Part shown: positions 1 to 64,000 of the stretch, one piece after another
Layout: each line of letters opens with the position of its first letter
Position numbering within the stretch: position 1 is the stretch's first letter
NCBI GenBank assembly: GCA_019054805.1
Contig: JAHQIY010000008.1
Span: 233,501-297,500, forward strand
DNA length: 64,000 bases
Direction of reading: 5' to 3'
Origin: Brachionus manjavacas
Lineage: Eukaryota > Rotifera > Eurotatoria > Ploima > Brachionidae
The notes under the pieces: generated by a model
What the model saw: only the letters and a program-made list of their open reading frames with translations
The model's database searches: none
Told to the model about the DNA's origin: nothing
Made by a program: the position numbers and the translations under genes

Positions 1-16
1 ATTAAACAATATTTTA

Positions 17-310
17 AACCAGACTTGTCTATAAGTCACAGTTTTAAGTCTATGTCACAAAAATTTAAGTCAAAGTCATGACTTGCACAAAATTTTTTAA
101 TAATACCTGCTTCATCTGGACCAGTTGAAAAAATTATTTTCTAAATCTGGTTACATTTAAAGAGCACATAGGTCAAGATTAACGTCAAGGAATTTGGAAG
201 CAACTACTTTATTGGTATCAAATATGGATTTAATAAATCATTGACTTGACTTAAAAAAAAAAAGACTTAAGACTTGTGACTTAAAAAGTTAGGTGACTAA
301 GTTTAATATT
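17..310. mobile_element. E5 copy 1: inverted-repeat element with iterated AAGTCA/GACTT
   Basis: The left part (17-95) carries CCAGACTTGT followed by repeated AAGTCA and AAGTCT. The right part (240-310) carries the same motifs inverted (TTGACTTGACTT, AAGACTTGTGACTT). Its left end matches the reverse complement of the right end of copy 2 at 15165-15570. No protein remnant is visible inside. Borders are approximate. Confidence 0.55.
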
Positions 311-1214
311 AAGTGACCATTGTTATTAAATCGGTGACAAATAAAATAATCGATCGATTTTATCATTTTTTTTTGTAGAATGAGCTAAAATTAAAGTTAA
401 ATTATTTTAAAAGTCAATTTTTAATTTTGTATATCAACAGGCTAGTGGCCATATCTATTTTATTTGATTTTAAAATTTTTAATAAATTAAAATATGCTAT
501 TTAGAAAATCATTTAAAACAGTAAATCATTGAACTATTTAAGTTTAATTTTTTGAAAATTTGTTAATATCAAATTAATATTATTGAATATTGAATGCTTG
601 AAAGTTCAACATCGATCTCTTGATCAAAAATCTTTTCATCAGTCTTGTAAAAAAAATCCAAATGTTTTTTCACCATTAACTTCTTTTGACGCTGGAAATT
701 CAATCAGTTTCTCACTATTCCTTAAATTTTGTTTAAAATTTCTTGAGTCATATTTTTTATCAATTTCAATCTTAAATTATCAAGTGAATTATGAAAAAAA
801 AAGAATTTTATAAGCAAAAGATAACATTCTTTCCAGTATTCTATGCTGAATTGATAATTCCAGCAGTAAAGTGACTTTATGTCGCTTTTGTAACCAGATT
901 TATTTTGTTGACTGGTCACCTAATATGTGACCAAGGAAAAAAATTTTTTAAGTATCTGATTTCAAAAAAATAAATAAAAAGTATTATTTATGCATCTTTG
1001 AGATGTGTTGCTTTACATGTACATTTAAACAATCACCAAATTCAGACCCTTGCAAGGAACCAAATATAGATTCAATGTTTTTTCCTTTTTTTCATCTCCA
1101 TTTTTAGTGTAGTGCCTTAATTGAATTGAATCATCATTGAATTGAGACATTGAATCTACATTTGATTCCTTGAAAGAGTCTAAATATGGGTCCTAATCTG
1201 GGTCTGAATTTGGG
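311..1214. other. No recognisable feature
   Basis: AT-rich sequence. The short open frames at 583-813 (+) and 722-919 (-) overlap each other, lack any motif I know and have no coding bias. I see nothing supportable here. Confidence 0.5.
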
Positions 1215-1590
1215 GATCATATAAATTAAATCAGAAGAGTTAAATGGGCTCAAGTTTGTACAAAACTTGGCCAATTTTAATGAAAGTGACGAAGAAAGTT
1301 TTGCACAGATAGAAAGAATCACAGTAAAAGAGAGTGAAATTTTCGCAACAGATTCTGCTGATGAAGAAGAAGATGTTGAGTCAACTGTTGGAGAGTTTAT
1401 TGAAGCCATTAATAAACTTAAAATAAGTGAGAGAAGTATTTAAAATTGTATCAAAAGTTCCAACTGCTTCTGAAGAAACACAATTTTCAGTCAAAAGAGC
1501 CCTGAGCAAAAATAGCTTGTCCAGAGTGCAGTAAATTAATGAAAAATGAGAGTGGTGTAAAGCAAAACATCACAAAGATGTACTTTTTGC
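1215..1590 (+). pseudogene. Decayed coding remnant, possible transposon ORF with zinc-finger-like end
   Basis: On the plus strand an open stretch of acidic character (EESFAQIERITVKESEIFA... then DSADEEEDVESTVGEF) runs to a stop near 1441. After frame changes a CPECSKLMKNESGVKQNITK stretch appears, resembling a C2H2 finger whose histidines have become Asn and Tyr. Coding-like composition is visible; origin is unknown. It is probably a dead mobile-element ORF rather than a host exon. Confidence 0.3.
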
Positions 1591-2239
1591 TTATTTTTTT
1601 TGAGATCAAGTATTTAAAAAAAATTTTCCTTGGTCACATAAATTTTGTTTACTGGACGTAAATTTTGTTTTTTGTTTACTGTTTTAAATAATTTTTAATC
1701 TTGATCAAATCTCTGGTATCTTTGGAGTTCTTCATTTCTTAAAATTAATTGTGACATTATTGATTCATTTAACGATTGTATTAATAAAAGATTTGATAAT
1801 TCCAACATTAATTTAATTACAACTCAATTTTTTTTGATAACAGACCACAACAAGTGACAATATAAAATTTTAGTACAAAAAAGAAAAAGGTTTTGAAATG
1901 TAAACATAACTAAAAACTGTGAAATTTTCAGTATTAATTAAAATATGCTAAAAAATGAAAAGTTGTTGCAGAGCTTAAAATTCACAAGTAAAAATTTGTA
2001 TATTATTGTGCTGTTTGCAGAACAATTTTTGAAAATTAGAAAAAAATTTTAAAATTTTTTTTTTTGTACTAAAATTACAATTAGTTAAATCATCTAAAAA
2101 TGTCTGACAGTGTAAGAATTATTTTTTCTATAGATAATTTACTTACTGAACTAGATTTTTGATTTCATTCAAAAAAAAATTAAATTTTAATTAACATACA
2201 ATTAAAGATGAGCAAAAATCGCTGAGCTTAAAAAATATT

Positions 2240-2487: not shown

Positions 2488-2714
2488 AAATGAAGATCTT
2501 TTTTAATTTTTTTCAACGCCAGATTTCGAACACTAAATATGTTCAGGTCAAGATTTTGAAATACCTTAAAAATAGACAAAAGTTGTTTAGAACATTTTTA
2601 TTTTAAATAAATATCATAAAAGATTAAATTTTTTATTTAAAAATTCCCTCTGGTTTTAAATATTTATTTCCATCATAATTTACTTTTGTTATAAAAAAAA
2701 TTTTTAATTTTTAG

Positions 2715-3561: not shown

Positions 3562-6500
3562 GTAAGTATTTTTTTGCATTGAATTAAATTTCAAGAAAAA
3601 AAATTTAAGAATTGAAAAAATATGGCATATATTTTTTTGAGTAGCTAATTTATTTTTTTCGAGTAGCTAATTTAATTTTCAAAATAGCTAATTTATTTTT
3701 GAAAAATAGATTATAAAAGTAGCAAAAATAATTTTTTTTCGTAGCTAAAATATTCAAAAAGGAAGCAAAAATACTTTTGTCAGTAGCAAAAATAGAAAAC
3801 AAAAAATCGAAAAAAAAACAAAAAAATACACAAAAATTAATTTTTATTTTTTCTTGGGCGACCTCTTGGGCGCTTTGTTGGGGCTGATTGATTTGTTAAT
3901 TCATTTATGACTGGCTGAGAATTATTTGTTTCACTATTTGAGACTAATTGTGTTGGCATATTGAAGGCGTCCCGATTCAAAGGGCCAGTTGAGTTTCTCT
4001 GTAGTGCAGAAGAAGCTTTTTTGCGTCTACCTCTCTTCGAGTTTTGCTCAATATTCAAGTCCAAAGCTGGAAAGGTATCAAACTTAGACGGTTCATAGCT
4101 TATACCTATTACATGTTTGCAAATGTAATTTTTTTTCCAATACTGACAAGAACATTCACTTAATTCCCATACTTGTTCATTGATTTCGATTATCTTGTAA
4201 GAATCGTTCCATGACAAATAAAAGTAGCCCAAGGTCCTGTTGAGTTCAAATAATTTCGACAGCCTTCTTTTGTCGCTTCATAATTTACATCAGTTGAAGT
4301 TACCATGTAAATAACCTTATTTTGATGTCTTAATTTAACGATTCGTTTGTTGTTTTTTTCTTTTTTTGCCCAAGTTGTTTGTTCGATTTGACCCGAAGAA
4401 AGTTCTCTTATACACTCTTCTAGATTTTTGTAAGAATCATACGGTTTAGAAGAGCCACGAAACTTTTTGGTAGGCAATTCATCGGCGTCGTTGTCAGTTT
4501 GATTCGCTTCATCATATTCATCCTCTCGTCGAACAAGTGAAGTCGTTGATGATTCAGAATTTTCTTGGCTCATATTTTGTTTTTACTTTAAATTTTTTGT
4601 TTCGAAGTTACTCAAAAGTCTGTTAATTTTATACTCATAATAATTAAACATTATAATTACCATTATAAAAATTATAGAATTCTGACTTCTTATCTAATTG
4701 TCACTTATATGATGTAAATTAAGTGCTATTTTAGATTAAAATTAATTTTTTATCAGTTGCTACTTAAAAAAATAAATTAGCTACTCAAAAAAATATATGC
4801 CAAAAAATATAAATGTCATTAACGTAAAAGGTGCTAGTCGACAAAATCTAAATAATTAATTAATAAAATTGAAAATTAAAAATAAAAAAAAACGATTTAG
4901 TATTTTACTAAAACTTCTTTTTTTTTGTATATTTTTTTTTATTTTACTCTTTAGTTTTGAAATTTGAGGAAAATTGAAGTTTTAATAAAAATGCTCACAA
5001 ATTATCATTAAAATGTCTCGGCATAAAACTCCATAGTAAAAAATCTTTTATTTAATAAAAATTTTTTCTATCATGATCAATAAAAATTAATTTTAAACTT
5101 GAATTTTCTAAATTTGACCAGTATTCTACTCTTTGATCATTCTCTTCTTAGTCAATCTTAGTTCAAAAAAGCTCTGCAGAAAATTTAATTTAAAAAAACA
5201 AATTCAGTTTAATTTAAAAAAAAATTATTTTTTTTTAATATAAGTATTTGGCTCGGACTTTTGAAAAACAAAAAAAATTTAAAAGATCGGACTTGTGATT
5301 TTTAAACAACTCTGAAAATGACCAAATTTAATTGCTAATAAAAAAAAATCCATCTTAATTTTTTTAAGCTGATTCCATTTTTAGTTAAAAAATTTTTCAA
5401 ATATTATTTTTTATTCAAGCAAAATCATTGTAATAATTTTGACAATATTATTGAACAAAGCTGCCTGGAATTCCCGCGATTCTATTTCCTGGAAAAACAA
5501 AAATTAATTGAAACTTTGAGTCATATGAGAGATTGTCGCATGTATCTAGACTCGGTGAAAATATGCTTCTCGGGCATCAAAGATTTGATCTATTCTCTGC
5601 CAAAAGATGTTGCGGCAAACGAAAAGCCAGACTCTTTGGCACTGGACATTTATGGTTTTGTTTATTTTTGTAGCAACTTTTCATTAGATAACCAATTTTA
5701 AAACATTTAGCTAGTGATTTGGAAGTGACAGGTCTGATAAGCCGAAATGGATCCGAAGAATTGAAATTTTTTACCGCCTTGAAATCCTATAGCCTTCAAA
5801 AGCCTTCAGAATGGTTCAAAAATTTTTCCAAAATTTTGAAATCAAGTGTTTGTAAGAACTTGCATTCCTACATGGACATACTTGAGGAATTTTCAGGTAT
5901 TTGAAAAAAAAAATTGATTTAGAATTTTTTTTTGTTATTTATTAAAAAAAAAGATTATCAATGTATTCCATCGATGGACAAGCGACTCGATGAATTAAGC
6001 CAATTTCCGTCTCAAGTAATTGTTTTGGGCGAATCGCTCACATGGTGCAAGCATGTATCCAGGATTATTGAGCACAAAAAATACGAAGAATTTAAACATA
6101 TTTTGTACTTTTTTTTTAATTAAATTTTTGAATTTTTGAATTTTTTTCATTTAGATTTTATTTAAACAATTCAATATCAAAATTATCGGCTCTTCAACTG
6201 ACAACCTTAGGGCCGGGTCGTAGGGAAATATTTTCCAAATTGATTCTATGGCTTCTCTATACCAAAGACTTGACTTCAAGTAAAATAAAAATAAAAAATT
6301 ATTTTTGGTTGATCAATTGAAATGTTTATTTAATTAAAGGTTTGATGGAGATTACAAATTTAAATCAATTTAGCTATGAATGGCTTCGAATGTTAAAATA
6401 TACATTCGAAAAAAGGGTCATTCTCAAAAACAATGACGAAACCGACCCGTCAGTCATTTTGTACAATAAATACGAAAATGTTCAAGTTAATCAATTGACT

Positions 6501-9500
6501 TCAAATATTATCTATGATTTTGAATTTCATGGTTTTTTTAATTTTAATTTTATTATGAATTCGAATAATCATTTTTGTTTAAGATTTATCATCTCAGTTG
6601 GTTATTAGTCCATTGACTGATAAATGCTTTTTGAATCTTACATCGGCTGTGGCATCTTTCCGATGTGGAGCTCTGATCGGTCCAGATTCATCAGGAAAGA
6701 GACAAACCCTTAACCTCTTAGCTCAGGTAATATATTTTTCAAAAGATTTTTAATCTATTTTTTTTGTGAAATTTAACTCACTTTAAAATGCAATAAATCA
6801 CACTTAAATCGAATTTTTCTGTCAAGTCTCTGGTCGAGTCTTGGCAAAAATGTGATCACATTTTATGTAACCACGAAATTTGGTTACCGAAAAATTAAAA
6901 AAAAAGCGTTATTGATCAGCAAAAAAATTTTGTTTCAATATTTATTGAGAAAATACGAAATTATTTAATTTTAATAGAGTAAATAAGTTTTAAGTTTTTT
7001 TACAAAGTGGTATCAATAAAGTTAACTGGACAAAACTTCCTACTAGATGTAACTCGATAGCTTCATCAGGTTCAGCTCAGAGAATCAGAGGACACAAGAG
7101 AAGACTATCAGGGCAGACCATTAAAAATTGTACTCAGAGGGAACACTTTTTAACAATAAAGTAGTAAATGAGTGGAACTAGATTTTTGCTCAGTTAATCA
7201 CTTCAAAAATGAATACGATAAGCTCAAAAATCCCTATCTATAGAAATAAGTAATAACCTGTTTTGAAATTGATTGATTATGTTAGAAGAGAAAATTTCAA
7301 TTTAGTTACAGTCGAGGAGCTGAATTGATTTTGTTGGTTGGCGCAGGTCGGTTCTATGTGTCAGGTACTTTTCTATCGGTTGAGAGCTGGTAATTGGATT
7401 GAAAGTTACAATATTTTTTATCGAAAGTATGATATGGACAGATCCATTTTGGGAATGTTTTGAACTATATTAATTTATTTATTTTGGATAATTAAAAATC
7501 ATTTTTTTTCCGTGTAAGACTTCTCCGCATGTTTCTTGCAGTAGCTATTTATTATTTTGATTATTATTATTTTAATTATTTAGTATTTGACCAAACTTTT
7601 TTAAGCACATTTTTTAAACTTCATAATGTGAAAATTTACTTCTTCCATGTACTCTCCTCATTCTCGACAAGGAATTTGATTTTTTCCATTAATAAAAATT
7701 GACACCAACTTATAGGAACTCGTCAATTTCAACAATTTCGGCAATGTGAAATAAGATACAGGAAGCAGAGCTTTATACATGCGAGTAACGAGCCGTTATT
7801 TTATAACAAATGTGTTGAAACATTGATGGGCTTAGTTCAAAAAGGGTAGAGGAAGTTTAATTTAAATATGTTTATTTTTCAAATTGTAAATGAAATAAGA
7901 TTATAAGATATCAAATAAAAGTATAAAAAAAGTATTGATAAACATTTTAATCATATAATGTTATTAATAAGGCAATAAATTTTTAAATATTGATAATGTT
8001 GAATCTTTTAACTAATTTAATCTTAATTCTTCTGTTTGTCTTGGAATTAAATTTATTTTATTTTTTTTTCCTTATTCACTCTTTGTGGAGCATAGGGTCA
8101 TTACTTTTGATTTCCACTTAAGTCGATCTTTTGCCTTTACCCTTGCTTCTCCCCATGTCATACCCATTTCGATGAGCTCTTTCGTGATTGTTGACCTCCA
8201 TGTTACTGCTGGTCGTCCTACCTTACATCGCCCTTGAGGTGTCCATTGAAGGGATCTTTTTGGTCACCGTGTTTCTTTCATTCTAAGTACATGCCCGAGC
8301 CATCGCAGTCTTTTGTTCTTAATGCATTGACTTAATGGCTCTGAATTTGTTCTTCTGCATAGGTCAGCATTTTACAATGTCTCAGGCCAGTGTATCCCGA
8401 GAATTCTCCGCAGGCTTCCAGTGTGGAAGGTGTTAAGGCTTTTCCTGTCAGATTCACTCATCCCCCAACATTCACTTCCGTACATCAATGTTGCTTTTAC
8501 TACACTGTTGTATAGTTTAAGCTTTGTTTCCCTGCTATAGCTTTTTGATTTCCATGCTGGTCGGAGTCTAGCAAAGACACTCTTTGCTTTACTCTTTGCT
8601 TTAGCAAGTCTATTCTTAATGTCTCTGTGTGTTCCCAACGTTGTGCTGATAGTGCTACCTAGGTATGTGAATTCATTTACACATTCGATTTGTGTACCAT
8701 CGATGATGATCGGGGTATCCAATTTGGTGTTTATGCACATAACTTTCGTTTTGGCTCCATTTATTTCGAGTCCGGTTGGTTTAGCGTTGTTCGCCAAGTC
8801 TTGCGTCTTCATATGCATATGTGCTTCTGTATTAGATATTAGCACCAGATCATCCGCAAAGTCTAAGTCTTCAAGTTTTGCAGTTAATCCCCATTGAATA
8901 CCTCTCGCACTAACAGTAGTTATCTTCATGACATAGTCAATCAATATTAGAAATAGTGTCGGAGATAGAACGCACCCTTGTCTGAATCCTGTACACACTT
9001 TGAAACTCTCAGATTTTCCTTTTTCCAGAATCACGTTACACTCGAAATTTTCGTAGAAGAGTTTTATCAAGTTATCTATCTTCTGTGGTAGGCCATAAGA
9101 TCTTAATATAGCCCACAAGGTTTCTCTGTGTATGCTATCAAAGGCTTTCTTGAAGTCAATGAAGTTAAGATACAGGGGGCTATTCCATTCCAGACATTGT
9201 TCTATGATGTTCCTAAGTGTAAATATCTGGTCTATGCATCCTCTACCTCGTCTAAAACCTGCTTGTTCTTCTCTAAGTATAACATCCAAAGAATTCATGA
9301 TTCGTTCCAGTATTATACTGCAGAACGCCTTGCTTGCTATTGGTAGCAGTGTTACTCCTCGCAAATTGTCACATATCATTTGTTACCTTTCTTTGGGAGC
9401 CTGACTATTAGGCCTTTTGACCAGTCCTCTGGTATTATTTCTTGCCGCCATATCTTACTGAAGAAGTCTTGCAATATCCTTACTGTGATACTGCCATCAG

Positions 9501-12500
9501 CTTTTAACATTTCTGCTGTGACTCCGTCAATGCCGGGTGCTTTCCGGTTCTTCAGAGCCTTTATCGCAGCTTCTATTTCTCTTAGGCTTGGCACTTCGAT
9601 GTTTATATCGAGGTCAGTGCTAGCTGCTTCTGGTAATTAAATTTATACTTTCTTTAATTTTAGTAAGCCTATCGTAAGGAAAAGGAACAATTAAAAAGTC
9701 ATTTATATTTTTTAAACGCGACAAACGTTAAGCCTAGTGATGTTTTAGCTAATGCAATTATCTCTTTTGATTTCTCTTTGTTCGCGTGGAAAAATTGTTC
9801 CATTTTTAATTTGTTCTAAACAAACCTCCACTAGATGCTGCTCTTTAATCAAATGATTAATTAACTTATTGGTGTCAGGATGACTATTAATGTCTTGAGC
9901 TAAGGCTTTATGCTAGGCTTCTATGCTATTATTTGATCTAAGTAAATTTTCGTGTACTTTATTGACTCAAGACAATTTGATTTTAAGAAATTGAATATTT
10001 TAATTATACTTTTTGGGGGAATAAATGGTAAAACTTTTAGAAATCTAAAATATTTTCTAAATTCACTTTCGTTGCTTTATGCATTTCTTAAACCATTAGA
10101 AACATGCTTCCAGATATTAGCCGTCAGGTGAGAAAGATGGGTTTTTAAAATCACTTTCAGTATCACAACTAGAAGTTTGTGTAATATTTGTTGAAATTTT
10201 GGTCACACGAGGCACATTTCTACTTCTTAATCTCATAGGTGACATTTCTGGATTCTTTAGATAGAGACTTAAATTTTTCTTCCATTTTTTAGTTTTGATA
10301 AATTTTAGAATTAAATAAATTTTATAAATCAATTTTAAGCTTTTTTTTCAATTACTAAACTACAAATTTGTCTTGGGCGATAAAAAAATATCAAAATTTT
10401 AATTTAATTATCTTTAATAAAAAATTTTATTATTTTCAATTTTGATTATTCAATTCTAGAAGAAAAAAATTATTTTTGTAATGTTTTGGAAAATTCTAAT
10501 TTTCTGATCAAGACAATAATTTTGTGATCGGATAGACGCGCTTAGGTAAAAATTACAAGATTCAGTGTTTGATTTATAACCTGAAATATATTAATTAGAG
10601 TGAGTGATATCAGACGTCGAGCTATAATAAATATCTTAAAATCACCCTTTTTTGGTTGATGGTAAAACTTGAAAAAGTAAATAGTTGCTCGTCTTCATTT
10701 GGAATTGCGCATCTCTTTTAGACCCAGTTTCTTAAATCAGCAATGTTCATAGGCTTTAGACCTTGGATTTTTTAATCAACTCACTATGGTTCGATAATCA
10801 GCTCTTTTTTCTGGTACGTCCCATGATTTTCTGCATTTACATGATCATTATTTTCTCCATGCATAGAAATACTAGAATTTGTGTTATTCTTGAAAATGTA
10901 AAGCCTTTTCTGACAATTTTTGAAAAATTCTTTGAATTTAGTGACATAATCTACTAAATCGAATACTGACATGTCACTATAAAATGAGCACTGGCTTTAA
11001 AAAGAGTATTGTTCAATTTTTATGACATGTCTTACAGAATTTATAAATTTATAAATTTTTATCATTTCAATTTAAACTTTAAGTACTTAAACTTTAATTA
11101 AATTAATAAATAAATTTGACCCAAAAAAAAACATCCGACTTTAACATAAATAATTTAATTTTCATTTTTTAAAGAATTTTATACAAGCTTTAACAATTGA
11201 TAATATTTTTAAAGTGTGTGCACTTTTTATTACATGTCACTAGAATTTAATTTTTTTTTTAAACTGTACTCTATTTTAAAGACATGTCAATCAATTTGGA
11301 TGATTACGTTATTTATTTATATTAATTTATTATTTATATTGCTTTTTTACATTGATATTGAAGCATAATAAAAAAAAAGATACAAGAATTGGCTAAAATT
11401 TTTATTTTGGGATTCTGCACAACCCGTATATATTTATTAAAAATTTTAAACTCGTAATGTATCAGAATTTGGAATTAATTTTTTTTTAAATAATAAAATT
11501 AGCTCCTTGAAAAACAATATTTTAAACAGATTAAAAAAAACATTTTTTATAAAAAAAATTATTAATTTTATTAATTTGAAGAATTGTGGACAATTTTTAA
11601 TGCAAATAAATTGTGATCGTGACTTAACCAGTGAAGTGTGCGAACGGATGCTCAAAGGTTTTGTTTTTAGCGGTTGTTGGATTGTTTTTGATCGAGTTGA
11701 CCAGCTTGAAAAAAGTATTAAAGAATTAAAATATTATTTATTTAATTATTATTTTTCTTTTTTAGACGTTCTATCAACTATAGGATTTCATATCGAATAT
11801 TTGCGAAATTCAACAAAATTTTTGACAGAAAAAGATCATACTCTAAATGGAATTCTGGATCCATACATGATAAGACAGAGAGTAAAATTTTTCGAAACTT
11901 TTTCTTTTTCAATTTTTCAATTTTTGAGCATTTTTTCTTTTTTGAGTTGGATTTTTAATCTAAAGTGACCAAAATTTCCCAGAGGGGTCTATGTCCATTA
12001 GACTTGGCAATCTCATTTTTAAAAGTGTGATTAGAAAATTAAATTTAAAAATTAGATGATCAAAAATTTTATTATGTGACAAAATGAAAAAAAATTAAAT
12101 AAATTTTAAGATATTTTTTAACCTGTCAGATTTTAAAATCAAAAGTGTTGATGATATTTAGTCTTTAAAAAAAATTAAATGACTTGTTATGATTCAATCA
12201 AACTTTGGTATCGAATAATGCTCTTATGAAATAGCACCATTTTGGTCGACAAACTTCTTGGTAAAATTTAATAAAATTTAATTAATCAATTTATGAGTAG
12301 ATTTGAATTTTTTTTTTAGGATTTAAAAGATTTTTAAATTAAAAAAATGAAACAAAAATCTAACTAAAATTTGGTCAATTTTTTTTTCTACCAAGAGTCC
12401 ACTTTTTGAAGACCCAAGAAAGCACAAAATATTTTTGGATTAGAATCAAATTTAAACTTGTTCTTTGAGTCACATAAATTAATTATTGAAGTGTTTGAGG

Positions 12501-15500
12501 GATCAAAATTAGTAAAAAAATTGAATTTCAAATAATTAAGATACTCTTTATTTCTTTTATTAATAAAATTGAATTAATGAATAAAAATATTTTCAAATAG
12601 CCCATGACCAGTCAAAAGAAAAATCCAAAAAATCAACGGGTTCACACAGTGCCATTTTATTCACTGGTAATTTTTATTATAATTAATTTTTATTTATTAA
12701 AAGAAAAAAATTAATTTTTTCATCTGACAGAACTCTGGTCTAAAGACCTATTTTGAAGAGCCATATGATGAAGAATTTGATAAGATTCCAATTTTCGAAG
12801 ACATGTCAACCATCGGATCGAGTCTCAAGTTCAAAGGTACCAATTTTTCTCACTTTTTTGTTAAACAGAATGAAGTTAGCTTGACATTATTTGTAAAGCT
12901 TTACGCTTTTTTCAATTAATAGCCGGCGGAGATTGAATTTTCATAAATAATTTTTTTTATATCATAGGAACGAGACCAAAATCTAGTGGTCAAAAACCAG
13001 ATGGTTTGTAACTTGATCTGTCATAATCTTCTTGATTTATCTATCTATCTATCTATTTTCATGATTATTTTAAGCACTAAATGTTCTTTTTTTTTGAGTT
13101 TGGATAAAATTAATACTTGTTATTTTTCTATCCAAACATGATGGAATTTTTATACTTTTGGTATCCAAACTATCTTTTTTTTTTGAAAAAAATTTACTAA
13201 CAATTTTTTTTATTAATATTTATTGTCTCTTTGAACCGAAAAATAAATGCTTTAAAAAAAAGATGATGAGCTCAAGAGAATTGAGGACGCGATCAATTAC
13301 GGAACTAACAAGCCAGACTTGCACTACAAGAGACCCTTTTTGGGCTACATTCGCTTTATGGGTCGCATTGTGCGCATAAATCCAAATCTAGCTTGCTTCA
13401 TTACTTCAAACTCTTATAAAAAATTACCAGAAAATTTAAAAGTATTAATAAAATATTTTGTTAATTTTTGAAGTGAATATTATTTTAATTTTCAGTGTTG
13501 CATTCGTAATGTGAGAATAATTGAGCCTGATTTAAAACAGATCACAATTGGTCTTCTATTTAGCCAAGGAATGAACCAAGGTTTGACCGATGTGGAAATT
13601 TTGGCCAAGAAAATACTCGATTTTTTGACCATCTTGCCTGCGATTGTTTGCTCAATGATTTTTTTCTTCCAATTTTTTAAAATTTCTTTTTATTTCAAAG
13701 ATTCCAAATGAGTTTGTTAAAAACTGCAAAAGCATTGGAACAATTTCCAAAATAATTAAACTGTCGGCTATTAAGTACAGACAAGATAAAGGTCGACAAG
13801 AGAGAGTTTTGGGTCTGAGCATTTCATGCTTATTTTCACCAAATTTTACCACCGCAAATGACAAAGTTCTTTTTAATTCTCTGTTGAAAAAAATATTCGA
13901 CTACGAAGCTACAAATTTTATCGAGGACACTCTTACCAATTTAATCAAAGCTCAGATGACTGACAATGGTCTTAGAATAAACAACAAACAAATTCAAAAG
14001 GTAACTTAAACGTGTCAAGCTTTTTTTTGTTTTTCCAAAAACTCTATCAAGATCTGGAAATAGATAAATTAATCCATAACCTTTTTTCGTATTCTAAGGG
14101 TTGACTATAGCTAATTTCCAGTTACCTGGAATACTCTTTAAAATAAGGCATCTATTCAAAAGTATCTGAAGAATGATAATAAATATTTCAGGGAGGGCTT
14201 TTTAAATTTTCGAGCCCTCTCGAATCAGATCAGGTGGGCTAGGAGAGGGTAATTAATCGAGAACAATTTTGATTTATGTAATGCCGATGGATGGGTTTTT
14301 TCCTGACAATGAGACGGACAAGTGAATAGTACTTAAATGTAGTATGCGGGTGCTTTTTCCTAAATACCTTAATAAATCCCTATGAGACTTATGCAGCCCC
14401 GTATGGATGACTTATTCAGCCAGAGCCTAGAACCAATCAGTTGGTTCTGTTTATAGTCTGTTGGTCAGCAACCGACTTGAACTAACTTTTTAAGCTGGTT
14501 CCGATTATAGAGACACCTATTCGGCACCTCTTCGAAGCAGTACGCCTACTACTTCTATCTTTTGATATTTATTGAAATATCCAAAAGATTCGAGTTCTTG
14601 TTCAGAACCCTGGATGACTTATTCAGCCTTACTTTAGTTTAACGAGAGACTTAAATCTTAAGCCGCTCGGATAGAACAAGTAAAAGAAAAGGTTAAGTTT
14701 ATTCTAAAAATATTCTTTATTTCAAATACTGTAATATGTAATTTAAAAAATTTAAAGTTATATTTATGTTAAAATATTAAGCTAACGAATGAAGTAATTT
14801 TCTTCAACTTTATAACACATAAAATTAAAATAAATAAAATTAAATTAAAACAAATAAAATGTCGGGGAACATCTTCATTACATTTATTTAAAAGCGAACT
14901 CATGCATTGATTTAACTGGTTCTATAAAAGAATCATTTTATCATAAATCCTTAAAACCGTCAAAAATAATCTAAGATGTCATTTTCACCGGACAAAGTAG
15001 AACACTCAATAGACGCAAAGCTAAAACATATGGAAAAAGATTGGCAGAATGTAAATAATTCTATATTTTTACATGTTTTTAAATTTACAATATTATTGTG
15101 CAATACTTCAGAAAATAAAAAAAAATTTACTTTTCAAAAATTTTCTGAAATTTTCAGAGTTGATTAAAAGTCACAAGTCTTAAGTCAAGTCAAAGTCTTG
15201 ACTTTGTAACCTTAAAGTTAATTTATTTAAAGAAATTAATTATTGATTCAGAAATATTATTAATTAAAAAATATATTCATTTCATATATTCTATCAAAAT
15301 AAAGTAATTAAGAATTTTAGGAATTTTTTATTTAACTTAAAGATAACTTTTATTTAAAAAATGTTTAGTTTTAAAAGATCAAAATTACACCGCAAAAGTG
15401 TAGTATTTTCTAAATTTTTTGCTGTCATTCTTGATCTATGTGGTCTGTTTATATAGCCAGCAAAAAAAAAGTCAAGACTTGTACTTTTAAAATTTTTAAA

Positions 15501-47226: not shown

Positions 47227-47905
47227 AAATAAACTGCAACTTGAAACCAGTTCAAGTGAGCTCCGGAACAAGCTTCGTCGCTCTTCTCTGTACTTTTTCA
47301 AGCTCCGCGGTATCCTTTTCAAAAAACGGGCACCACGAACTGATAGCATATTCTAGATGAGGTCTGACCAATGATGTGTATAGTAATCTGATGTTTTCTT
47401 GGTTAGGAAAATTAAAAGCTTTCTTGATCATTCCTAAAACTCTGTTTGCCTTGGCAGTACAATTTTTCGCTTGTACGTCCCACTTAAAGTCGTTTTGGAT
47501 ATAAATACCGAGGTCTTTCTCACAAATCGACTTTGCCAAGGGTTGTCGACCCAAACTCTCTGACTTAATTTCATAGTCAAATCTTGTGTTTGAATAACCA
47601 AAGTGCACAACTTTACATTTATCAGTATTAAGTTGAGTAGACCAATTCGTTGACCAATTTGACACTTTGTCTAAGTCCCCTTGAAGATCTATCAATGATT
47701 GGAAATTTTTAACGACAGAAATAATCTTCGTATCATCAGCATAAGCTTCACAGTTTGACTCAATCATCTCTAACATGTCATTAATGAAGATGACAAAAAG
47801 AATAGGTCCTAAAACCGAACCTTGAGGTACACCACTAGTTATTTTAGCACATTGTGAAGATGATTCTCCAAGTACCACACAAAGAGTGGCAATCGAAATT
47901 TACTA
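47227..47905 (-). pseudogene. CR1/Jockey-like LINE reverse-transcriptase fragment
   Basis: A minus-strand open frame of about 220 codons: ITSGVPQGSVLGPILFVIFI, CEAYADDTKIISVV (catalytic YADD), LNTDKCKVVHFGYSN, KDLGIYIQNDFKWDVQAKNC, LVRPHLEYAISSWCPFFEKD and ELEKVQRRATKLVPEL. These are the palm-to-thumb blocks of CR1-like RT. The fragment is 5'-truncated but its frame is intact, so it is fairly young. A (AGT)n run marks the 3' end. Confidence 0.85.
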
Positions 47906-54726: not shown

Positions 54727-54737
54727 GGGGGGGGGGG
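54727..54737. repeat. Poly-G run
   Basis: About 11 consecutive G in otherwise AT-rich sequence. Confidence 0.85.
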
Positions 54738-55076: not shown

Positions 55077-55082
55077 ACGCGA

Positions 55083-56076: not shown

Positions 56077-57057
56077 TTAAAAATGATGTTTTAAAAAATT
56101 GACCAAAGAGCTTGAATTACTATGGCAAAATTGCATTAATAATTCACGTAGATTTGAAACATTGAAATTTTTCAATTTTAAAGCATCAATTATATCATTT
56201 AAAATTTTTTCTATTTTCTTATCATGGAAAGTACAATAGTGAAAATCTCGGTTTGCTTGACTAGCAGCAATCAATTGTATGACAACTTTAAAAAATAAAA
56301 TAATAATTAAATTTTAAGTACCATTTTTTACATTTAAGTTGAATGTCGCCATTAAAAGCACCGCAACCCCAATTACCAGATGCAATAGGCAGTTGATTTG
56401 AGCCTGAACTGAAACCAATATATGCCTTAGTAATTTCCCTATCAATTAAATCTTTTTGATATTGGATTATAGGATCCGGGTAGCAAAGAGCATCTATCGC
56501 TAGTACATCTGTTCTCTTACGTCCATACTCATCTCTTTGAAATATTCAATTGCAGTTTAAAATAAAAATAACTCTAAATTTAAGTTATTTACTTTTGAAT
56601 TTTATCTTCAAAATTACCAGACCACTTAAATGACCAAGCATAGCCTGAATATGTACTAAACTGTTCTGAACCGCGTATGATGATACATTCGTTATCTTTC
56701 ATTGGTTCCATAAAAAGCATTGACACAATAAGTTCTGGACACATTAAAAATCTAATTTCTTCTTGAACACAGCCTGAATTTAAAACACCTCCTCCGATAT
56801 ACTTGTTGGCAAAATCAACCTGAAGTGCCCCCGTATATTCTTCAATTGTTTTTTCATTTGAAATGACTGGAAATCGAATTTTATTTCTCGAATTTTTAAT
56901 TGTTTGAATATCGAAATCTTGATAAAAGCGGCAAAATGTTATATTTCCCATGTCTTTTTCATTTTTTTGTGTAATTCTATCAAAATAGTGAAGAAGACAC
57001 TTAATTTTTTCAATTTTGACTTGATTTATTACTTTTTGATTTGATTTTGCATACCAA
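56077..57057 (-). CDS. PARG: PARG catalytic exons
   Basis: Three exons (57057-56593, 56534-56332, 56285-56077) with introns of 58 and 46 bp. The first includes KIEKIKCLLHYFDRITQ, then LQVDFANKYIGGGVLNSG and CVQEEIRFLMCPELI. This is the PARG signature GGG-x(n)-QEE with the catalytic glutamate pair. GSEQFSTYSGYAWSFKW corresponds to the substrate-contacting Tyr loop. The second exon holds RKRTDVLAIDALCYPDPI and NQLPIASGNWGCGAFNGDIQ. The T|TT junction gives LKFVIQLIAASQANRD (family: 'LKalIQmlAAA.a.Rd'), confirming the splice. The last exon ends LLMQFCHSNSSS and KHHF. All catalytic motifs are present. Confidence 0.92.
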
Positions 57058-60000
57058 CTAAAAATAAATATTAGCATTAGATTTTTTTTTGATTTTATTT
57101 CAATTTTTTAAACAAAATATAAAATTATGCATAGTCTTAAACGCCTAGTATGGATTAAAATTTAAATTGTCAAAAAATTAAAGTTTGAGAATTTTAATCA
57201 GCTGGAAGAACTCGTTCCAAGTCAAATTTAAAATTGTATTTTTTTTGTCATTGACAGCTTTAGTTTTGTCATCCCCTAAAATAGTGTAAAATTTTCACTA
57301 ATTTAAATAAGACAAATTGATTAATTGACAAATTGAATAATTTATGTGTATATTTAATATTTTGATAAATGCATGGTTGGATCCAATGTCTTCGGTTTTG
57401 TAATTATTCCCAGTCACAACCAAAATAATGTTTCATCGAGGAATTAGCGAAGTTCATCGAAAAATCATCAAATAACCCACTGATTTTACGATGAGACTAT
57501 TAAATCCCCAATCTTGACTAGTATTGTAGCTTGTGACTTAAAAACAAGCCTGGCCAAAATATAAAGATTATCATCATTAAAAAAAATATCTTTTTTTCTG
57601 ACAAATTAGACTTTGCTCAATTAATTAATTTAACTAATTAATAATTTTTTTTTTAAAGATTAGCCTAAATTAATAGAAAAATAGATTTCGGAAAAAATGA
57701 GTTATGGACCTGATCGTATATTTGAATCGAATACTTGGACTATTGAAGTCAACGACAAGCTCTGGTCTAGTTGAGACAATATCAACAACTCAAGTTAACC
57801 GTAGTCAAAAAAACAAAATCACACGGCTAGCGATGCCGGCTTTAATAAGTAGTACAATACGGCAAGGAGAACTTTAAAATTATTGTTAAATGATGAGAAA
57901 CCATAAACTACAATTTTTTAACAGTTTATGTTAATAATATTGGTTTTAAAATTTTTTTTCTTAATTTAAATGAAAATTGTATATTTTATTTACCAAGTAT
58001 AATTAAATTAATTTTTTGTATTTTATTAGAATAAATTCTTTTAAAAGCTAATTTTGAATTTTTTTAAAAAAGCTTGAGTATTTTATTATTTTTTTCAAAA
58101 ATATTTTATTAAATTAAAATAAAGAAATAACAATTGATAAATTACTTTTAAATTTATTTTAACTCGATGAAAAAAAATATATTGAAATATATGAAAAACC
58201 GAAGAAATTCATATTTTTCATCGATGTAACATAATGAATCCGCTCACTCCTCATCGATGATTACTCGATGAATTTTTTTTTTCATTGATGCAACATCAAA
58301 TTTTAATTTACTGGGAATTAGTCACCGTAAGGCCACCTGAAACGCGCTGCTTGAATCATTTATTTTGGCTTAAATTTTTCGGGGGTGACAAATTTAATTT
58401 TTTAAAGATGACAAAAATAACTAAAAGTGGTGACTAATTTAATCTATTCTAGCTGACTTTAAAAAACTAATTATTCTGACAAAAAAACTAAACAACTGAC
58501 AAATATTGAGATGACTTTTTAATAATTTTGCACTGACTATTTTAAAGACAGAGTTTTTTTGGTTTTATTTTATTTCTAATTAAAAATCATTTAATTGTTG
58601 AAAAAATAATTATATATTCAATCAAAAAGTATTATTGTCACTCAAATCATTATTTTATCAGTAAATTAATTTATTTGTCTTCAAATGTAGTTTTTTTGTT
58701 AGTAGATTTAGTCTTTTTTGTCAGTAAAATTTAGTTTTTTTTTTAAGTCCATCAATTGATGGCCTAAAAAAAACCCATTAAAACAGATAAAAACCTCTGA
58801 ACATCTCAAGTAAAACGATCTTTTAAGAGTTAATTCTCCAGCAATATAGTATTTTATATGAAATCCAACTTTTGGCCTAGCAATCTTGTTCTTATAGCGT
58901 CATCACGCTATAAGTTAAGTGGTTAAGTAATTTAAAAGATAAATTTCAAATGGAAAGTTCGCTAGCGAACTCAAGCCAAATTCAACGTTGGAATTTTAAG
59001 AATTCAGTCAAACTGAATCAAAATATGGATTATAAAGTTTGAACACGCCTTTACTGCATCAAGAGTCTTTGAACGTTTAATCGAAATTAATGGTGAATTT
59101 TTTAAGATTGAAGATGCAAACAAATTCCCGGAGACTCGATATTTAGGTTTCACAATCTCTCAGAAGATTTCAACAAGGAATCATTTTGACACTTTTTCGA
59201 AGCTGTTAAAATCAATGGTCTCAAAGTTGAACAAATTTCAGAAGAAACATGCAAAGAAAGTCAAGTAAAAAACATTGTGAAACGAGTAAAAGTTTCCTTC
59301 CCGAAAGAATCAGAACAATTAGTTAGAAATTTGTCTGGTCCAACAGTTCTATACGGATTAAAGTGCATAATTTCAATTGCTGGACAGAAACAAAATTGTT
59401 TTTTGGTAATGGTGAAGGGCACAACATTGCTAGATGTCGTGTTAAAACTAAGCTTGCAAAAACTGTAATCAAAAAGGACATTTGACCTAGAAGTGCTCTT
59501 TAGCTGAAAGGCTTAAATCGATTGAACGAGCAAAAATCGACTATAGCGAACTAGCGATTCAAGAAAAAAATTTCTCAAATAGAAACAAACATGTTGGAAT
59601 TGATAACCAAAACTCCATAGTTCCCAAATAACGAGTCAACAAATGAGGAATCTCTTTTGTCGTCACAGTCCAGCCAAAAAGTTTGCATACTCCAGTTCTA
59701 TCAGTTAATCTTAATAAAGATTCTGAACAAATAAACTGCTCAAATTTCGAAAAATTAAGAGATCAATCTATTAAGTCAACAAAATACCTTGTTTCCAATT
59801 TTCAAACAAGTACGCAAATCAAGCGCGTTTCAGAATCCGACAATTCACAAACAGCTGAATCGAAAAAACTCAAAGATCAAACTAATGAAAAGGAAAACAA
59901 TAAACTTAATGGCGTAATTCAAGACAATAATATTGGACAGAATTCAGATGAAAACAACAGCGATTTTATACACAATGATGAAAAATCTATCTAGTCTGCT

Positions 60001-62935
60001 TTCCTCCAAGAACAGGTTAGTAATTACACACTGGAACTGTCTTCACTTACCTAGGGTTCATCTCTTGAGAATTTTTTAGCTCAGAAATGCCCAGACATTG
60101 TTTTGCTCAGAGAATTAAAGATAGATTTAATCGAGGCAAATTTTTATCTTGATTTTCACAGTTCTTAACAAAACCACGCAACAAGTATAGAGGAGGAGTA
60201 GATTTTTTAATTAGAGAAGGAATAGAACTTATACAAGATTTTTCTTATGAGGAATTTAATTCCGAACTCCTTTGTATAAAACTAAATTTAGGAAAGAAAA
60301 ATGAATTAGTTATATTTAGTCTTTATAATCCACCCAATGTTCTTCTGAACTTTGAGCTTTTTAAAACAGTAAATAAAAAATGTAAAAACTACATATTAGG
60401 TGGCGATCTAAACGATAGAACAAAGCAAATAGACTGCGTAGGTGAAAATGAAGCGGTATAATGCACGAAAGAATAATCAATGAGTTAGACTTTTCAGTAA
60501 TCAATGATAAGGGCCCTACTTTCAATATTTTTAATAAGAATTACCATGAAATTCTTGATCTTTTTTTAGTTTCATCTTCATCAATTGACCAAATTACGGA
60601 CTTCAATGTCTTTAATAGTCAAGACATGACTAGTAACCATTTCCCAATCGAAGCATTAATTTCTATGGGCTATCAATTAGAAAAAAATCAACAGCTAAAA
60701 AATTTAACAATAAGAAAGCGAACTGGCAATTATTTAGCGAGATATTAAATTCTCAAATTGTTATTTTCCTTGAAAGTTCCATCACTATAGATCAACTAAA
60801 TGATAAAATTACAGAAAAAATTATTTCTGCTTCTCATAAAAGCATTCCTTTTCTTTCTCAGAAAATCTACAAAACCAGTCTTCCCCCCGAACATTGTTAT
60901 TCTGAAATATGAACGCAGGAAAGGAAGAAGAAACTTTCAAAAAACTCGCTGTCAAAAGCTCAAGAAAAAATATAATCAACTTACATTTGAGTTAAAGGCC
61001 TCTTTAAAAAAAATTCTGGAATCAAAATTGGTTTGATTTTATCAAGAAGATGCGAAAAAACGGCAGTAGTACGTATGTTCGCAGACAACAAATTCGCAAC
61101 ATTATGTTCGCAGAAATATGCTCGCAACTATTATGCTCGCGAGAAATGTCCAAATTAGATATTTTAGCATTTAAAAATTAGCACAATACTTTGATTTTTG
61201 ATCAATTTTATTGAATAAAAAAACATCAATAATTACAAAAATGAAATAAGAAAAAGAATTTGAAAAAAAACTTAAGGAAGACTATTATTATTTATTTAGA
61301 GCCTTATTCACATATGTTCGTCTTTGCGAACATATGTACTATCCCCGAAAAAACTATTTCCTCCTTTTTTCCTGAAAACTGAACTATGTAAACATTCGCC
61401 ACATGTAACAATCTATGTCTTCTAAACTTTCATTTTTTTTAGCTTATTTACTTTATTTTGATTATCTTTTTTATCTCATTTTATTAACTTTAATTTTATT
61501 TTTTATTTTCATTTTGATTTTTTTTTAATTTATTCTGAAGGAGCCCTAGCTCGGTACAGAAAACAAATAAATAAATAAAAATAATAATAGAGAAAGGTTT
61601 AGCATCAAAAGCTTAATAGAAATAAATCGCGAAAACAATTTAAACAATTTTAAGTCACAAGAACTATTTACGAAGTTAATGTCGAGACTGAGCAAGAAAT
61701 GAAAAAAACTAAAATACTTAATGTGTGCAGATTAAATCAGGAAAAAGAGAACAAACAAAAAGAAGGAAAGAAAATAGATTAAAAATAACAAAAAACGAGC
61801 AATTTCTACAAAATCACGATTTGGAAAAAAAAAATTAACCGTAACAAAATAGACACCAAATTAACAACATGAGGAAGTTAACAATAGTTGAATAACCGAC
61901 TTAATTTTCTTTTTAAAAATCAAATTTTTATTTACTTATCTTGAGCCACAACTTTTGTTTGCTTTTTTTATAAAATGGTAAAATTTGACTCGAATGACCC
62001 TCTTTGTATAAAATGGAGACAAATTAGCTCAACCCTTCCTAAACTTAATATTTTTTCTATCGAAAATTTTAGAAGTTTGATGATTTTTTTTCTTAATCTA
62101 ACTTTAATTATTTTTTTCAATTTTGCTTATTAATTTGAAATAAATGTTTAAAATAAAAGAATTAATGTAAATTTTTCTAGCTTACAAGTTATTTTACAGA
62201 TATTTTGTCTTTCAGTTATTTTTTTATTTTCCCGTTAATTAATAAAATGATAAATTTACTCTGAAAAGCTAAACATTTGATTTTAATTTGGAAAAGTGCA
62301 AAAAAAAGCATTTGCCAAAATACTAGCACATTGTTTTTGATTAAACGATATCGAATGAGTTTTACCTAAAAATTGGTATTTTTTCTTATTTGATAATGTT
62401 TTCATAATAATTAACCAATTTTACATGATTTTAGAATGGGTATTGGCCCTTTGACAATGTTTGGCAAATCAAGAGCTAAATCAGCCATTTTTGGAATTAC
62501 TTCTAGCAAGTAATAATCATTTTTTTCATTTTTATAAAAAAAATCATGCAAATTGTTCAAATTGTCAGAATTCAAAATAACCTTTAGATTTTAATAATCA
62601 AAAAATTAAGGTGATATTTTTATTTAGTTACTTTTAAAAAATTGAAAACAGTATTTTTGTCTTCCCTTTTGTATGTTGATTTTTTATTTTGCTCAATTAA
62701 AGCATTTAGTTGTTGTTCTTTTTCAAATGGTAGTGTTACAAACGATTTTGCATCAGTCGATCCACATGTTGAAGTAAAATCCTTTAGAAAGTATTGGAAT
62801 TTTTCCTAGAATTATTCTCATTAAATTTACATCATCAATGAACATAACATCGTGATTACTGGAATTTGTTAAATCAATAAATGTATCACTATTGGTCTCG
62901 CTTAAAGTTACATGGTTACAATTTACAGACGACAT
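56077..62935 (-). CDS. PARG: Poly(ADP-ribose) glycohydrolase gene, possibly disrupted
   Basis: PARG removes poly(ADP-ribose) chains through a macrodomain-type catalytic core. Minus-strand exons: 62935-62831, 62805-62632, 62502-62425, 62365-62286, then across 5.2 kb 57057-56593, 56534-56332, 56285-56077 (stop). Upstream exons carry IPKMADLALDLPNIVKGPIP and NQKQCASILANAFFCTFP, the accessory block 'LP....LAl.LP......iPlL' and 'sq.q.a.LLAnaFfctfP'. Downstream exons hold the catalytic core. Problems: the join 62632/62502 is one base out of phase with canonical sites, the exon at 62365 runs into a stop after FCTFPN without a good donor, and about 15 expected residues are missing before 57057. Either I missed a small exon or the gene is damaged. 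An N-terminal regulatory region is absent. Confidence 0.75.
57407..58317. mobile_element. E9: 911-bp element with iterated CATCGATG and TTA target duplication
   Basis: Ends TTCCCAGT (57407) and ACTGGGAA (58317), flanked by TTA on both sides. TCATCGA-type motifs recur at 57424, 57452 and 57464 near the left and at 58218, 58251, 58264 and 58282 near the right, in opposite orientation. A 3-bp TTA duplication would fit PIF/Harbinger-like elements, but no transposase is recognisable inside. It lies in the long PARG intron. Confidence 0.6.
58383..58745. mobile_element. E4: element with iterated TGACAAA/TGACTAA
   Basis: The left part carries GGGGGTGACAAATTTAA, AGATGACAAAAATAACTAAA, GGTGACTAATTTAA and CTGACAAAAAAACTAAACAA. 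The right part carries the inverse (TTTAGTCTTTTTTGTCAGTA, AAATTTAGTTTTTTTTTT). A related inverted end, TAGTTTTGTCATCCCC, lies at 57259-57276. Borders are approximate. Confidence 0.5.
58975..61066 (+). mobile_element. LINE with ORF1 remnant and AP-endonuclease, in the PARG intron
   Basis: The ORF1-like region (about 59000-59992) is frame-broken, with FPKESEQLVRNLSGPTVLYG and a Lys/Asn/Ser-rich C-terminus. ORF2 starts near 60016: VITHWNCLHLP, PDIVLLREL, YRGGVDFLIREGIELIQDFS, NELVIFSLYNPPNVLLNF and YILGGDLNDR. Then come PTFNIFNKNYHEILDLFLVS and DMTSNHFPIEALIS. These are the Asn, Glu, GDxN and SxH motifs of the apurinic-type endonuclease of Jockey/CR1 LINEs. A post-endonuclease helix-rich region (ERRKGRRNFQKTRCQKLKKK) follows, then a MITE at 61069. 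No reverse transcriptase is found. Frameshifts are present. Confidence 0.75.
61069..61339. mobile_element. E10: 271-bp MITE with TA target duplication and iterated ATGTTCGC
   Basis: Ends GTACGTATGTTCGCAGAC and, inverted, GTACATATGTTCGCAAAG. TA flanks at 61067-61068 and 61340-61341 suggest a Tc1/mariner-type transposase. TATGTTCGCA or TATGCTCGCA occurs four times on the left side, and a back-to-back pair sits on the right. Confidence 0.8.
61411..61590 (+). repeat. R1 repeat copy e
   Basis: CAATCTATGTCTTCTAAACT, TTTTTAGCTTATTTACTTTA, then ATTCTGAAGGAGCCCTAGCT, CGGTACAGAAAACAAATAAA. This is the best-preserved copy of the dispersed R1 unit, ending in (AAAT)n. Confidence 0.7.
61591..62282. other. 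PARG intron remainder, no clear feature
   Basis: A plus-strand stretch near 61598-61700 (SIKSLIEIN, NFKSQELFTKLMSRLSKK) looks faintly coding and may be a displaced LINE segment. The rest is AT-rich and unreadable to me. Confidence 0.3.
62286..62935 (-). CDS. PARG: PARG upstream exons
   Basis: Start ATG at 62935 (MSSVNCNHVTLSETN...FIDD). A 25-bp GT-AG interval (62806-62830) then leads in phase to EKFQYFLKDFTSTCGSTDAK and SFVTLPFEKEQQLNALIEQN, ending KNTVFNFLK at 62632. The next exon, 62502-62425, gives VIPKMADLALDLPNIVKGPI; after a 59-bp intron exon 62365 gives KTHSISFNQKQCASILANAF then FCTFP. These match the accessory domain that precedes the PARG catalytic domain. Without the 25-bp intron the first two parts are in different frames. 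Confidence 0.7.
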
Positions 62936-63785
62936 TTTATGCAGTTGATTATTAAAATTTGAGTATGTTTATTGTCTAAAAAAATTTTTGATAAAAATAA
63001 AATTTTAAACTGGTGATTTTAACCACTTAAGTAATAAATTATTTTGATGATTAAGTTTTCATTAAATTATAATTTTTTTTATATTTTGATTATTTCTAGT
63101 ATTAGCCACCGGGAATAACTTATCTTATTTTATATAAAATCGCAAACATTTGAAAAAAGTTAAGTTTGACTTTTCTCCTCAACTTTTACAGTGGTGATTC
63201 GCAACATGGATTTTACCAAATTTTACGTAAAATTACGTAAATTTTGATAAATAAAAATTTTGGTAAAATCTGCAAAATCCAAATTTTCGCTAAGTGTTGA
63301 AAGACACTTTCATAGTGTTTTTAATATGTAGCGTAATATTTTACTGGTACTAATGACACTTTTTCTTAAAAAAATGAAAACTAATTTAAAACAATTTAAC
63401 TCAAATTTTTTTATTGTTGATAACTTTAATTGATGTAAAATTTATAAAACGAAATAGAATTTCTTTTTTAAATTTATGTATCTTAAATTAAAAATTTAGC
63501 TTAATTTTTTAATTTGCTCGTGACAGATAGTTAAAAATTAGATAAAAAAATAAATAGTAATAATAATGATTTTAAAAGTTATTTTCGTAAGTATGTTACC
63601 CACACTTTAAGCACTTTTAAAAAATGATGTGTTTTTTGTTCTCATTTTATTTGATTAAAAAATGAGCACATAATTTAATATATTTTTATCCTTAATTATA
63701 AAATTTGGCTTCTTTGTCTTCTGTCAAATTAGTTTCATTTTTTAAGAAAAAGTTTCAACAAGTCAAAAAAATTGGATTTCTATTA
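62936..63785. other. Upstream flank of PARG; one TACGTAAA hairpin
   Basis: 63208-63280 is an imperfect hairpin (GGATTTTACCAAATTTTACG paired with AAATTTTGGTAAAATC...) containing two TACGTAAA motifs, as in E7. Otherwise AT-rich with no gene signal. The PARG promoter should lie here but no element is distinctive. Confidence 0.45.
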
Positions 63786-63966
63786 AATTAAGGCATCTTG
63801 AAGTTCACGATCATGTTTTTGAAAAAAAAAATTCAAAACAAACTTTACAAAAAATGAGTTAATACATTTAAACTTCTATCAATTTTCACAAAAAATCAAT
63901 TTTCAATGAGCTGAGAAAATATTTTTTAATTTATTTTTTAAATCTTATCTTCAAGATGCCTTAATT
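63786..63966. mobile_element. Short MITE with perfect 18-20 bp inverted ends
   Basis: TAAATTAAGGCATCTTGAAG at 63784-63803 and its exact reverse complement CTTCAAGATGCCTTAATTTA at 63949-63968. The outer TA on each side may be the target duplication. The spacer has no coding content. Confidence 0.65.
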
Positions 63967-64000
63967 TAGTGTATATTAATTTTTATATATATAATCTTAA

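Follow-up and report, generated by a model that had tools for sequence, protein, structure and literature searches.

Short words iterated near both ends of a transposable element are already published for Mutator-like elements (MULEs) of a mosquito and of nematodes. In Aedes aegypti, subterminal tandem repeats of 9–15 bp are given for 10 of 12 MULE families with long terminal inverted repeats; Muta1 carries nine 12-bp repeats separated by 3–4 bp spacers and Muta5 nine 15-bp copies, and 13 of the 14 Muta families have FLYWCH, while Muta6 has SWIM (Liu and Wessler 2017, PMC5225508). The report on Tm1, a Mutator/Foldback element of root-knot nematodes, describes mostly 14-bp units (191 of 334 and 144 of 238; PMC3169594), and for the hAT element Herves a short subterminal word at each end is reported as bound by the element's own transposase (PMC3143072). 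Here we describe elements of this architecture in a 64-kb stretch of the rotifer Brachionus manjavacas (positions 233501–297500 of contig JAHQIY010000008.1, hereafter C8; "the window") and in the 114-Mb, 61-contig assembly to which it belongs. An initial annotation of the window had proposed at least ten unrelated elements, each with a private motif iterated at both ends. In 15 MULE arrays of this genome, the distance from one word to the next (the pitch) follows the transposase clade.

The present MULEs resemble the Aedes Muta families in their MULE transposase, 8–9 bp target duplications and many non-autonomous derivatives, and Muta1 has a pitch of ~15–16 bp; unlike the Aedes families, those of B. 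manjavacas include a second pitch class of ~21 bp, looser arrays and often imperfect terminal repeats (PMC5225508). With Tm1 they share 9-bp duplications, a Phantom-like transposase and ends of mostly 14-bp units with a conserved word, the difference being that Tm1 is described as one family in two species, whereas around ten words occur in one genome here (PMC3169594). The pitches of Muta1 and Tm1 agree with the 13–16 bp class described below. Among the systems compared, Herves is the closest measured case and may model what AAGTCA, one of the words of the window, does (PMC3143072); unlike Herves, AAGTCA belongs to a non-autonomous element of ~280 bp whose arrays are dense. Searching the open-licence literature by title and abstract, we found no paper on two pitch classes or on word–enzyme co-divergence in MULEs, and the word "subterminal" is absent from the main text of two MULE surveys (PMC13359780, PMC6446971).

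A profile search of the genome with PF10551 returned at least 150 matches over the cut-off among 394 candidates, and 29 of the 150 scored matches lie in open frames of at least 500 amino acids (aa). Eleven loci (L064–L074) were chosen for their long frames (512–700 aa) before their ends were viewed; one of them, L069, was left out for a frame continuing past the end of the sequence, and the other ten were tested. In seven of these ten (L064, L065, L066, L068, L070, L072 and L073), iteration at both ends was stronger than in any of 60 random genomic places, of which the highest scored 8. L065 has six exact GTCAAGC copies per end within a 195-bp terminal repeat with two mismatches. L071 has TTCGACAAG-type words at both ends, those of one end lying within the stop-to-stop frame excluded from the test. 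Candidate target duplications of the transposase-bearing loci were best-of-search hits and were not counted as proof.

Fifteen arrays were measured: L024, L062, L067, L068, L073, L065, L061, L063, L071, L072, L064, L066, L070, M802 (C8:188–191 kb) and G95 (C8:366–376 kb). A motif finder gave one word per array, and 14 of the 15 words beat the best of eight shuffles. Short word-to-word distances concentrate at 19–23 bp in the first seven arrays and at 13–16 bp in the remaining eight; both groups also contain longer gaps and some deviating distances. Autocorrelation without a motif finder was compared at two peaks (13–16 or 19–23), and in all 15 arrays the higher one was that of the clade. The transposase tree comprised 15 proteins, leaving out L061 and including L074, a locus with no array; it placed the two pitch classes on opposite sides of one branch (support 94/97), and only 1 and 0 of 500 label shuffles were as clustered. 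The pieces of L061 match proteins of the first (~21-bp) side only, and one pitch class is common to transposases that are just ~30% identical. Across these 15 arrays, pitch follows transposase clade, at ~21 bp on one side and ~15 bp on the other.

Clear FLYWCH zinc fingers occur in L064, L066 and L070, and weaker ones, scoring under the Pfam cut-off, in L071, L072 and L074. All six belong to the second (~15-bp) side, but FLYWCH was also seen, again below cut-off, in L073 of the first side. SWIM is below cut-off in L067, and a CxC...CxH pattern was recognised by eye in L022, L061 and a copy at 314 kb. The labels "SWIM-type" and "FLYWCH-type" used for the two clades are approximate, because these assignments are mostly below cut-off or made by eye and FLYWCH occurs on both sides. 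Comparison of two proteins with the PDB gave no usable sequence match. DDE_Tnp_4 frames in L006 were considered as the partner of TTCGACA arrays and rejected; they seemingly lie in a separate insertion, and next to the array there is a MULE remnant. The same locus encodes an 802-aa MULE protein (L006 4996–7401, C8:188496–190901) whose C-terminal part resembles an Ulp1-type protease by eye, while Pfam at E 0.01 reported only MULE. A stretch of ~53 kb at C18:1076907–1129517 holds ten MULE domains among the 150 listed. Similar reverse transcriptase fragments occur in or beside MULE copies at L021, L022, L025 and L061, perhaps reflecting a retrotransposon that prefers MULEs.

The words themselves change with the enzyme. 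L063, L071 and L072, which are 56–57% identical, share the word TTCGACA(A/T); L024 and L062 (50% identical) have GTAGCTAAT and GTATCTAAT; L067 and L068 (43%) have ACCACAAA and ACCCCAAA, the L067 array being weak; and L064 and L066 (43%) have GAGAAAA and ATAGAAA. Word similarity was correlated with transposase identity across 14 elements (Mantel r = 0.31, p = 0.006). The correlation was also present when each lineage was represented by a single element (nine elements, r = 0.29, p = 0.037), when L062 was left out (r = 0.40, p = 0.003) and inside each pitch class (21-bp class: r = 0.60, p = 0.015; 15-bp class: r = 0.61, p = 0.011). The link between word and enzyme thus holds among relatives, down to ~40% identity, and fades with distance.

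The GTAGCTAAT family is a MULE. Its window copy (3624–4801, minus strand) is a SWIM-type deletion derivative with ends GGCATATA, the word AGTAGCTAA and a pitch of ~21–22 bp, flanked by the 9-bp duplication AAAAAATAT at 3615–3623 and 4802–4810, and transposase remnants within 3840–4582 are 88–96% identical to pieces of L023/L024. L024 is a 2.2-kb copy in which a 562-aa frame with a MULE domain (PF10551, E = 3.3e-11) stands between the same ends and arrays; the frame is without the SWIM part, which other GTAGCTAAT copies keep. Among the eight copies with both ends, duplications were exact over 9 bp in five, over 10 bp in one and over 8 bp in one, with none in the last, three of 11 copies not being scorable. 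Within 6 kb of MULE domains we counted eight GTAGCTAAT locus–domain pairs against 0.68 expected, six of the eight at one place on C2, among the matches listed. The pattern GTAGCTAAT-N9-GTAGCTAAT had no match in the genome, as expected given the ~21-bp pitch. Three GTAGCTAAT copies at C27:230550, 242704 and 255086 are ~12.2 and 12.4 kb apart, which suggests a tandem duplication.

The ATTAGATAC element (36924–37741, minus strand), whose word is GTATCTAAT, is apparently a derivative of a sister MULE. A remnant of the SWIM region at 37394–37609 is 34% identical to a piece of L061, and the family is MULE-like by its 9-bp duplications, which were exact in three of five copies, had one mismatch in the window copy and were absent from the fifth. 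Counts of TAGCTAA/TATCTAA/TAGATAA were 44/1/5 in seven GTAGCTAAT copies and 0/44/0 in five ATTAGATAC copies; copies of one family share ancestry, so that counts of 44 are not 44 events. The two families look like sisters in which one letter of the word differs in nearly all copies. The suggestion of the initial annotation that arrays change together with their transposase is seen in this MULE comparison, in pitch by clade, in word against identity and in the letter switch.

We put the probability that the iterated words are arrays of putative binding sites for the element's own transposase at about 0.75. The transposase of each lineage would bind several inward-facing copies of one 7–9 bp word per end, and binding at both arrays would pair the two ends of the element; non-autonomous copies would retain the arrays and be moved in trans. 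On this model the word would be what the transposase touches, the pitch may reflect the seating of transposase subunits along the helix (21 bp being two turns), and private words may reduce cross-mobilisation. The hAT-like AAGTCA family and the CATCGATG family with its 2-bp duplication could then be taken as independent cases of the same arrangement. A more ambitious form of the model is possible, with the odds somewhat against it: pitch would be fixed by clade, at two turns in the SWIM type and ~1.4 in the FLYWCH type, the word would drift with the enzyme and switch in nearly all copies at once, leaving graded enzyme–word pairs, and at least three superfamilies would have acquired the arrangement independently, as a protection against cross-mobilisation. 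The matching of transposase and ends during divergence is difficult to study where each species provides a single element. This genome contains at least 150 MULE-domain matches from many lineages, the words can be read directly, and enzyme–word pairs at ~57, 50, 43 and 35% identity can be compared within it. If pitch is fixed by clade, it would also allow orphan miniature elements to be assigned to a transposase type by a simple test on their sequence.

Several observations weigh against binding by the element's own transposase or against the clade pattern from which it is argued. The 15 arrays represent some ten independent lineages in one host genome, and the end stretches were set after the sequences had been viewed, plain frame flanks having been used only in L064, L065, L066 and L070. 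The L067 word did not beat the motif-finder null, M802 has its top lag at 17 and a weak class peak (1.0 vs 0.4), and G95 shows both autocorrelation peaks (5.0 and 3.5). Branch support (94/97) falls slightly short of the threshold set by the tool, and the tree has long branches for G95, M802 and L065. In the test of ten loci against 60 controls, L067 tied the control maximum and L071 and L074 fell below it, and L074 lacks an array altogether. The correlation of word with enzyme is weak and not significant in the 85 pairs below 40% identity (r = 0.15, p = 0.18); the trend is therefore carried by closely related pairs and may be explained simply by common descent. Conservation of core over spacer was discarded as evidence, being largely a product of the motif finder (0.90–1.12 bits for the core in the shuffled null). 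L061 has one array only, and the MULE frame in L062 adjoins the ATTAGATAC array and is not demonstrably within the same element. Among the matches listed, pairs within 6 kb of MULE domains numbered one for ATTAGATAC, one for GGTAAA, two for TACGTAAA, three for CATCGATG and one for GACATGTC, which, with none for TGACAAA and ~0.6 expected for each of the six families, is near expectation or weak. No transposase partners were found for TGACAAA, ATGTTCGC, CATCGATG or the unassigned families, and none for AAGTCA, for which no hAT transposase search was made.

It is improbable, though worth weighing, that ends of foldback type underwent slippage and gene conversion, which made and homogenised the arrays, the word being the last-expanded unit with no binding needed. 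Tandem-unit ends are typical of foldback elements according to the report on Tm1 (PMC3169594), and longer units recur in some elements such as L065; the copies, however, often have irregular spacers (L065 has pitches of 21, 21, 38, 29 and 30), yet the word is kept. One pitch class is common to transposases as distant as those above, and from slippage alone no association of pitch with clade would be expected. We give still less credence to the words being sites for host factors, such as repressors, the small-RNA or chromatin machinery or replication, with their turnover an escape from the host: large word differences among lineages would fit an arms race, but host factors should tend to promote words held in common, and the words instead track their own transposase among relatives. 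That everything is a by-product of AT-rich sequence, the first way in which the initial annotation thought it might be wrong, is excluded: although the window has 27.9% GC by base counts and certain repeat distances, multiples of three among them, are elevated from other causes, paired clusters are almost absent from Markov sequences of order 3 and order 5 and the copies belong to dispersed families with duplicated target sites.

The underlying count considered clusters in which 7-mers recur, paired between two ends with the orientation reversed; three stretches of coding repeats had been masked, and pairs lying next to each other were merged. The window gave 30 clusters, 14 pairs and 5 places, against 0–5, 0–1 and 0–1 in 12 Markov controls, and 264 kb gave 147, 84 and 15, against 8–16, 0–1 and 0–1; words iterated at both ends thus exceed chance. 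These figures supersede an unmasked, binned count (30, 14 and 8 in the window against 0–7, 0–1 and 0–1 in 12 order-3 Markov sequences; 304, 104 and 32 in 264 kb against 8–18, 0–2 and 0–2), which was too high because coding tandem arrays and binning inflated it. Three of the five window places each fall within one element (AAGTCA at 17–310, ATTAGATAC and TACGTAAA), another mixes CATCGATG with a TGACAAA pairing located outside that element, and the last pairs TACGTAAA words across elements. The array listing shows the arrangement outside the window as well, and all nine word families searched genome-wide are dispersed repeats, with eight places for ATGTTCGC and at least ~25–40 scored places for each of the others; TAATGYCAA copies were compared within the fetched sequence rather than genome-wide. 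Lag 21 topped the repeat-distance spectrum of the 264 kb (39 vs 10.6), a result confounded by multiples of three. Rfam and tRNA scans of the window gave no matches. Elsewhere on C8, five ACATTGA clusters at 383352–395860, with three of four gaps of ~2.78 kb, form a long-period tandem array, and a ~1.4-kb element at 360128–361478 has palindromic AGTCGACT/AGTTAACT words at both ends, mostly at multiples of 15 bp.

The motifs named in the initial annotation sit at most of the places given for them, several of its coordinates stopping short of the element ends. Its figure of 3–6 copies at both ends is exact only for the 6-bp AAGTCA (left/right 3/3 in 17–310 and 3/4 in 15165–15570); exact copies are fewer in the other families, at 2/1 for GTAGCTAAT, 2/3 for ATTAGATAC, 4/1 and 4/1 for TAATGYCAA, 3/2 for GGTAAA, 2/2 for TACGTAAA, 4/1 for TGACAAA, 2/1 for ATGTTCGC, 2/1 for GACATGTC and 0/2 for CATCGATG. 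Allowing mismatches raises most of these counts, and the relative L065 has 6/6 exact copies. CGACATGTCG had also been listed as iterated; the word occurs once in 23891–24035, a stretch that on present evidence is not an iterated-end element. Opposite orientation holds for the clusters beyond chance and tells little for the palindromic GACATGTC, the TACGTAAA core and CATCGATG. Target duplications measured 9, 8 or 2 bp instead of the 7–8 bp, 3 bp and TA proposed, the 7 bp reported for GTAGCTAAT arising from a boundary placed one base out. The involvement of several transposase classes stands, with MULEs (9/8 bp), a hAT-like family (8 bp) and a 2-bp class. The families are not mutually unrelated, as GTAGCTAAT is a MULE, ATTAGATAC and TGACAAA appear MULE-like and ATGTTCGC probably belongs with them; the converse possibility, one known family with variable termini, captures the fact that much of the material is one known superfamily and misses the other classes present.

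Among the remaining elements, TGACAAA (58367–58764, extending beyond the earlier coordinates) has GGC ends and a pitch of 20–23 bp. It appears MULE-like by its 9-bp duplications, which among five scorable copies of six were exact in two, had one mismatch in two and were absent from the window copy; none of the 39 copies listed lies within 6 kb of a MULE domain among the 150 matches listed. The low-copy ATGTTCGC element (61062–61346, likewise longer than first given) has GG ends, a pitch of 14–15 bp and the 8-bp duplication GAAAAAAC on both sides; in the one copy scored, the exact 8 bp with GG ends was the best match of the boundary search, and the element is probably a derivative of a 15-bp-pitch MULE. 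A FLYWCH-class MULE transposase remnant at 9751–10130 (minus strand) is up to 53% identical to L066.

CACTA elements (En/Spm) have subterminal repeats and short, 2–3 bp duplications. The CATCGATG element (57409–58315), with the word TTCATCGA mostly at its right end, resembles them in its subterminal repeats and short duplication and differs in its CCCAGT ends; it was not filed as CACTA because its ends are CCCAGT and not CACTA. A 2-bp match was found in six of seven scorable copies (chance 0.087 each), the window copy being the exception and an eighth not scorable, and a 3-bp duplication in none of the seven. Two PF02992 domains are present in the genome, at C1:6944498 and C3:1299351. Judged by its ends and duplications, CATCGATG is a third class and not MULE-like.

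AAGTCA appears hAT-like by duplication length and by the CAG start of its ends CAGACTTG, which we take to be a hAT-type terminus. Duplications of 8 bp were exact in six of eight fetched copies of this ~280-bp family, which had 959 first-look candidates; the copy at C8:306014–306293, chosen by its duplication, has it too. The window copy at 20–310 has the left end CAGACTTG and a right end that does not match, and that at 15165–15570, assigned by its sister copies, has an incomplete left end.

Four families, TAATGYCAA, GGTAAA, TACGTAAA and GACATGTC, were assigned to no superfamily. TAATGYCAA occurs at 22240–23150, with closely placed words ~15–16 bp apart, and inverted at 34056–34895, with one candidate 8-bp duplication. 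The GGTAAA element (35688–36916) has long imperfect terminal repeats, its true ends seemingly lying further out. The TACGTAAA element (38259–38692) has 53-nt ends that are 94% complementary, with the word twice per end at a 10-bp pitch, and seems to extend further out. GACATGTC (10967–11288) is a dispersed repeat with a palindromic word and ends that also seem to lie further out. The MULE neighbours of GGTAAA and TACGTAAA were rejected as partners; they look like separate elements, because L063 bears its own TTCGACATG arrays and the TACGTAAA unit is outside the transposase in L061.

Minus-strand coding stretches in the window include reverse transcriptase fragments at 8372–9382, 26930–27619, 28360–29046 and 47252–47899 and a poly(ADP-ribose) glycohydrolase stretch at 56589–57077. 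On the plus strand, pieces of a dynein heavy chain follow in order at 11507–11968, 30552–33938 and 45450–46508, with AAA_8, the stalk and AAA_9 above the Pfam cut-off and AAA_6 and the C-terminal domain below it; given this order, many of the elements described here may lie in introns of a single gene. Bins of 2 kb across the 3.4-kb dynein exon reach 41–50% GC, and an inverted repeat with GTAACGTTAC-like palindromes (30111–30156 and 30598–30643) stands just before and at the start of this GC-rich exon.

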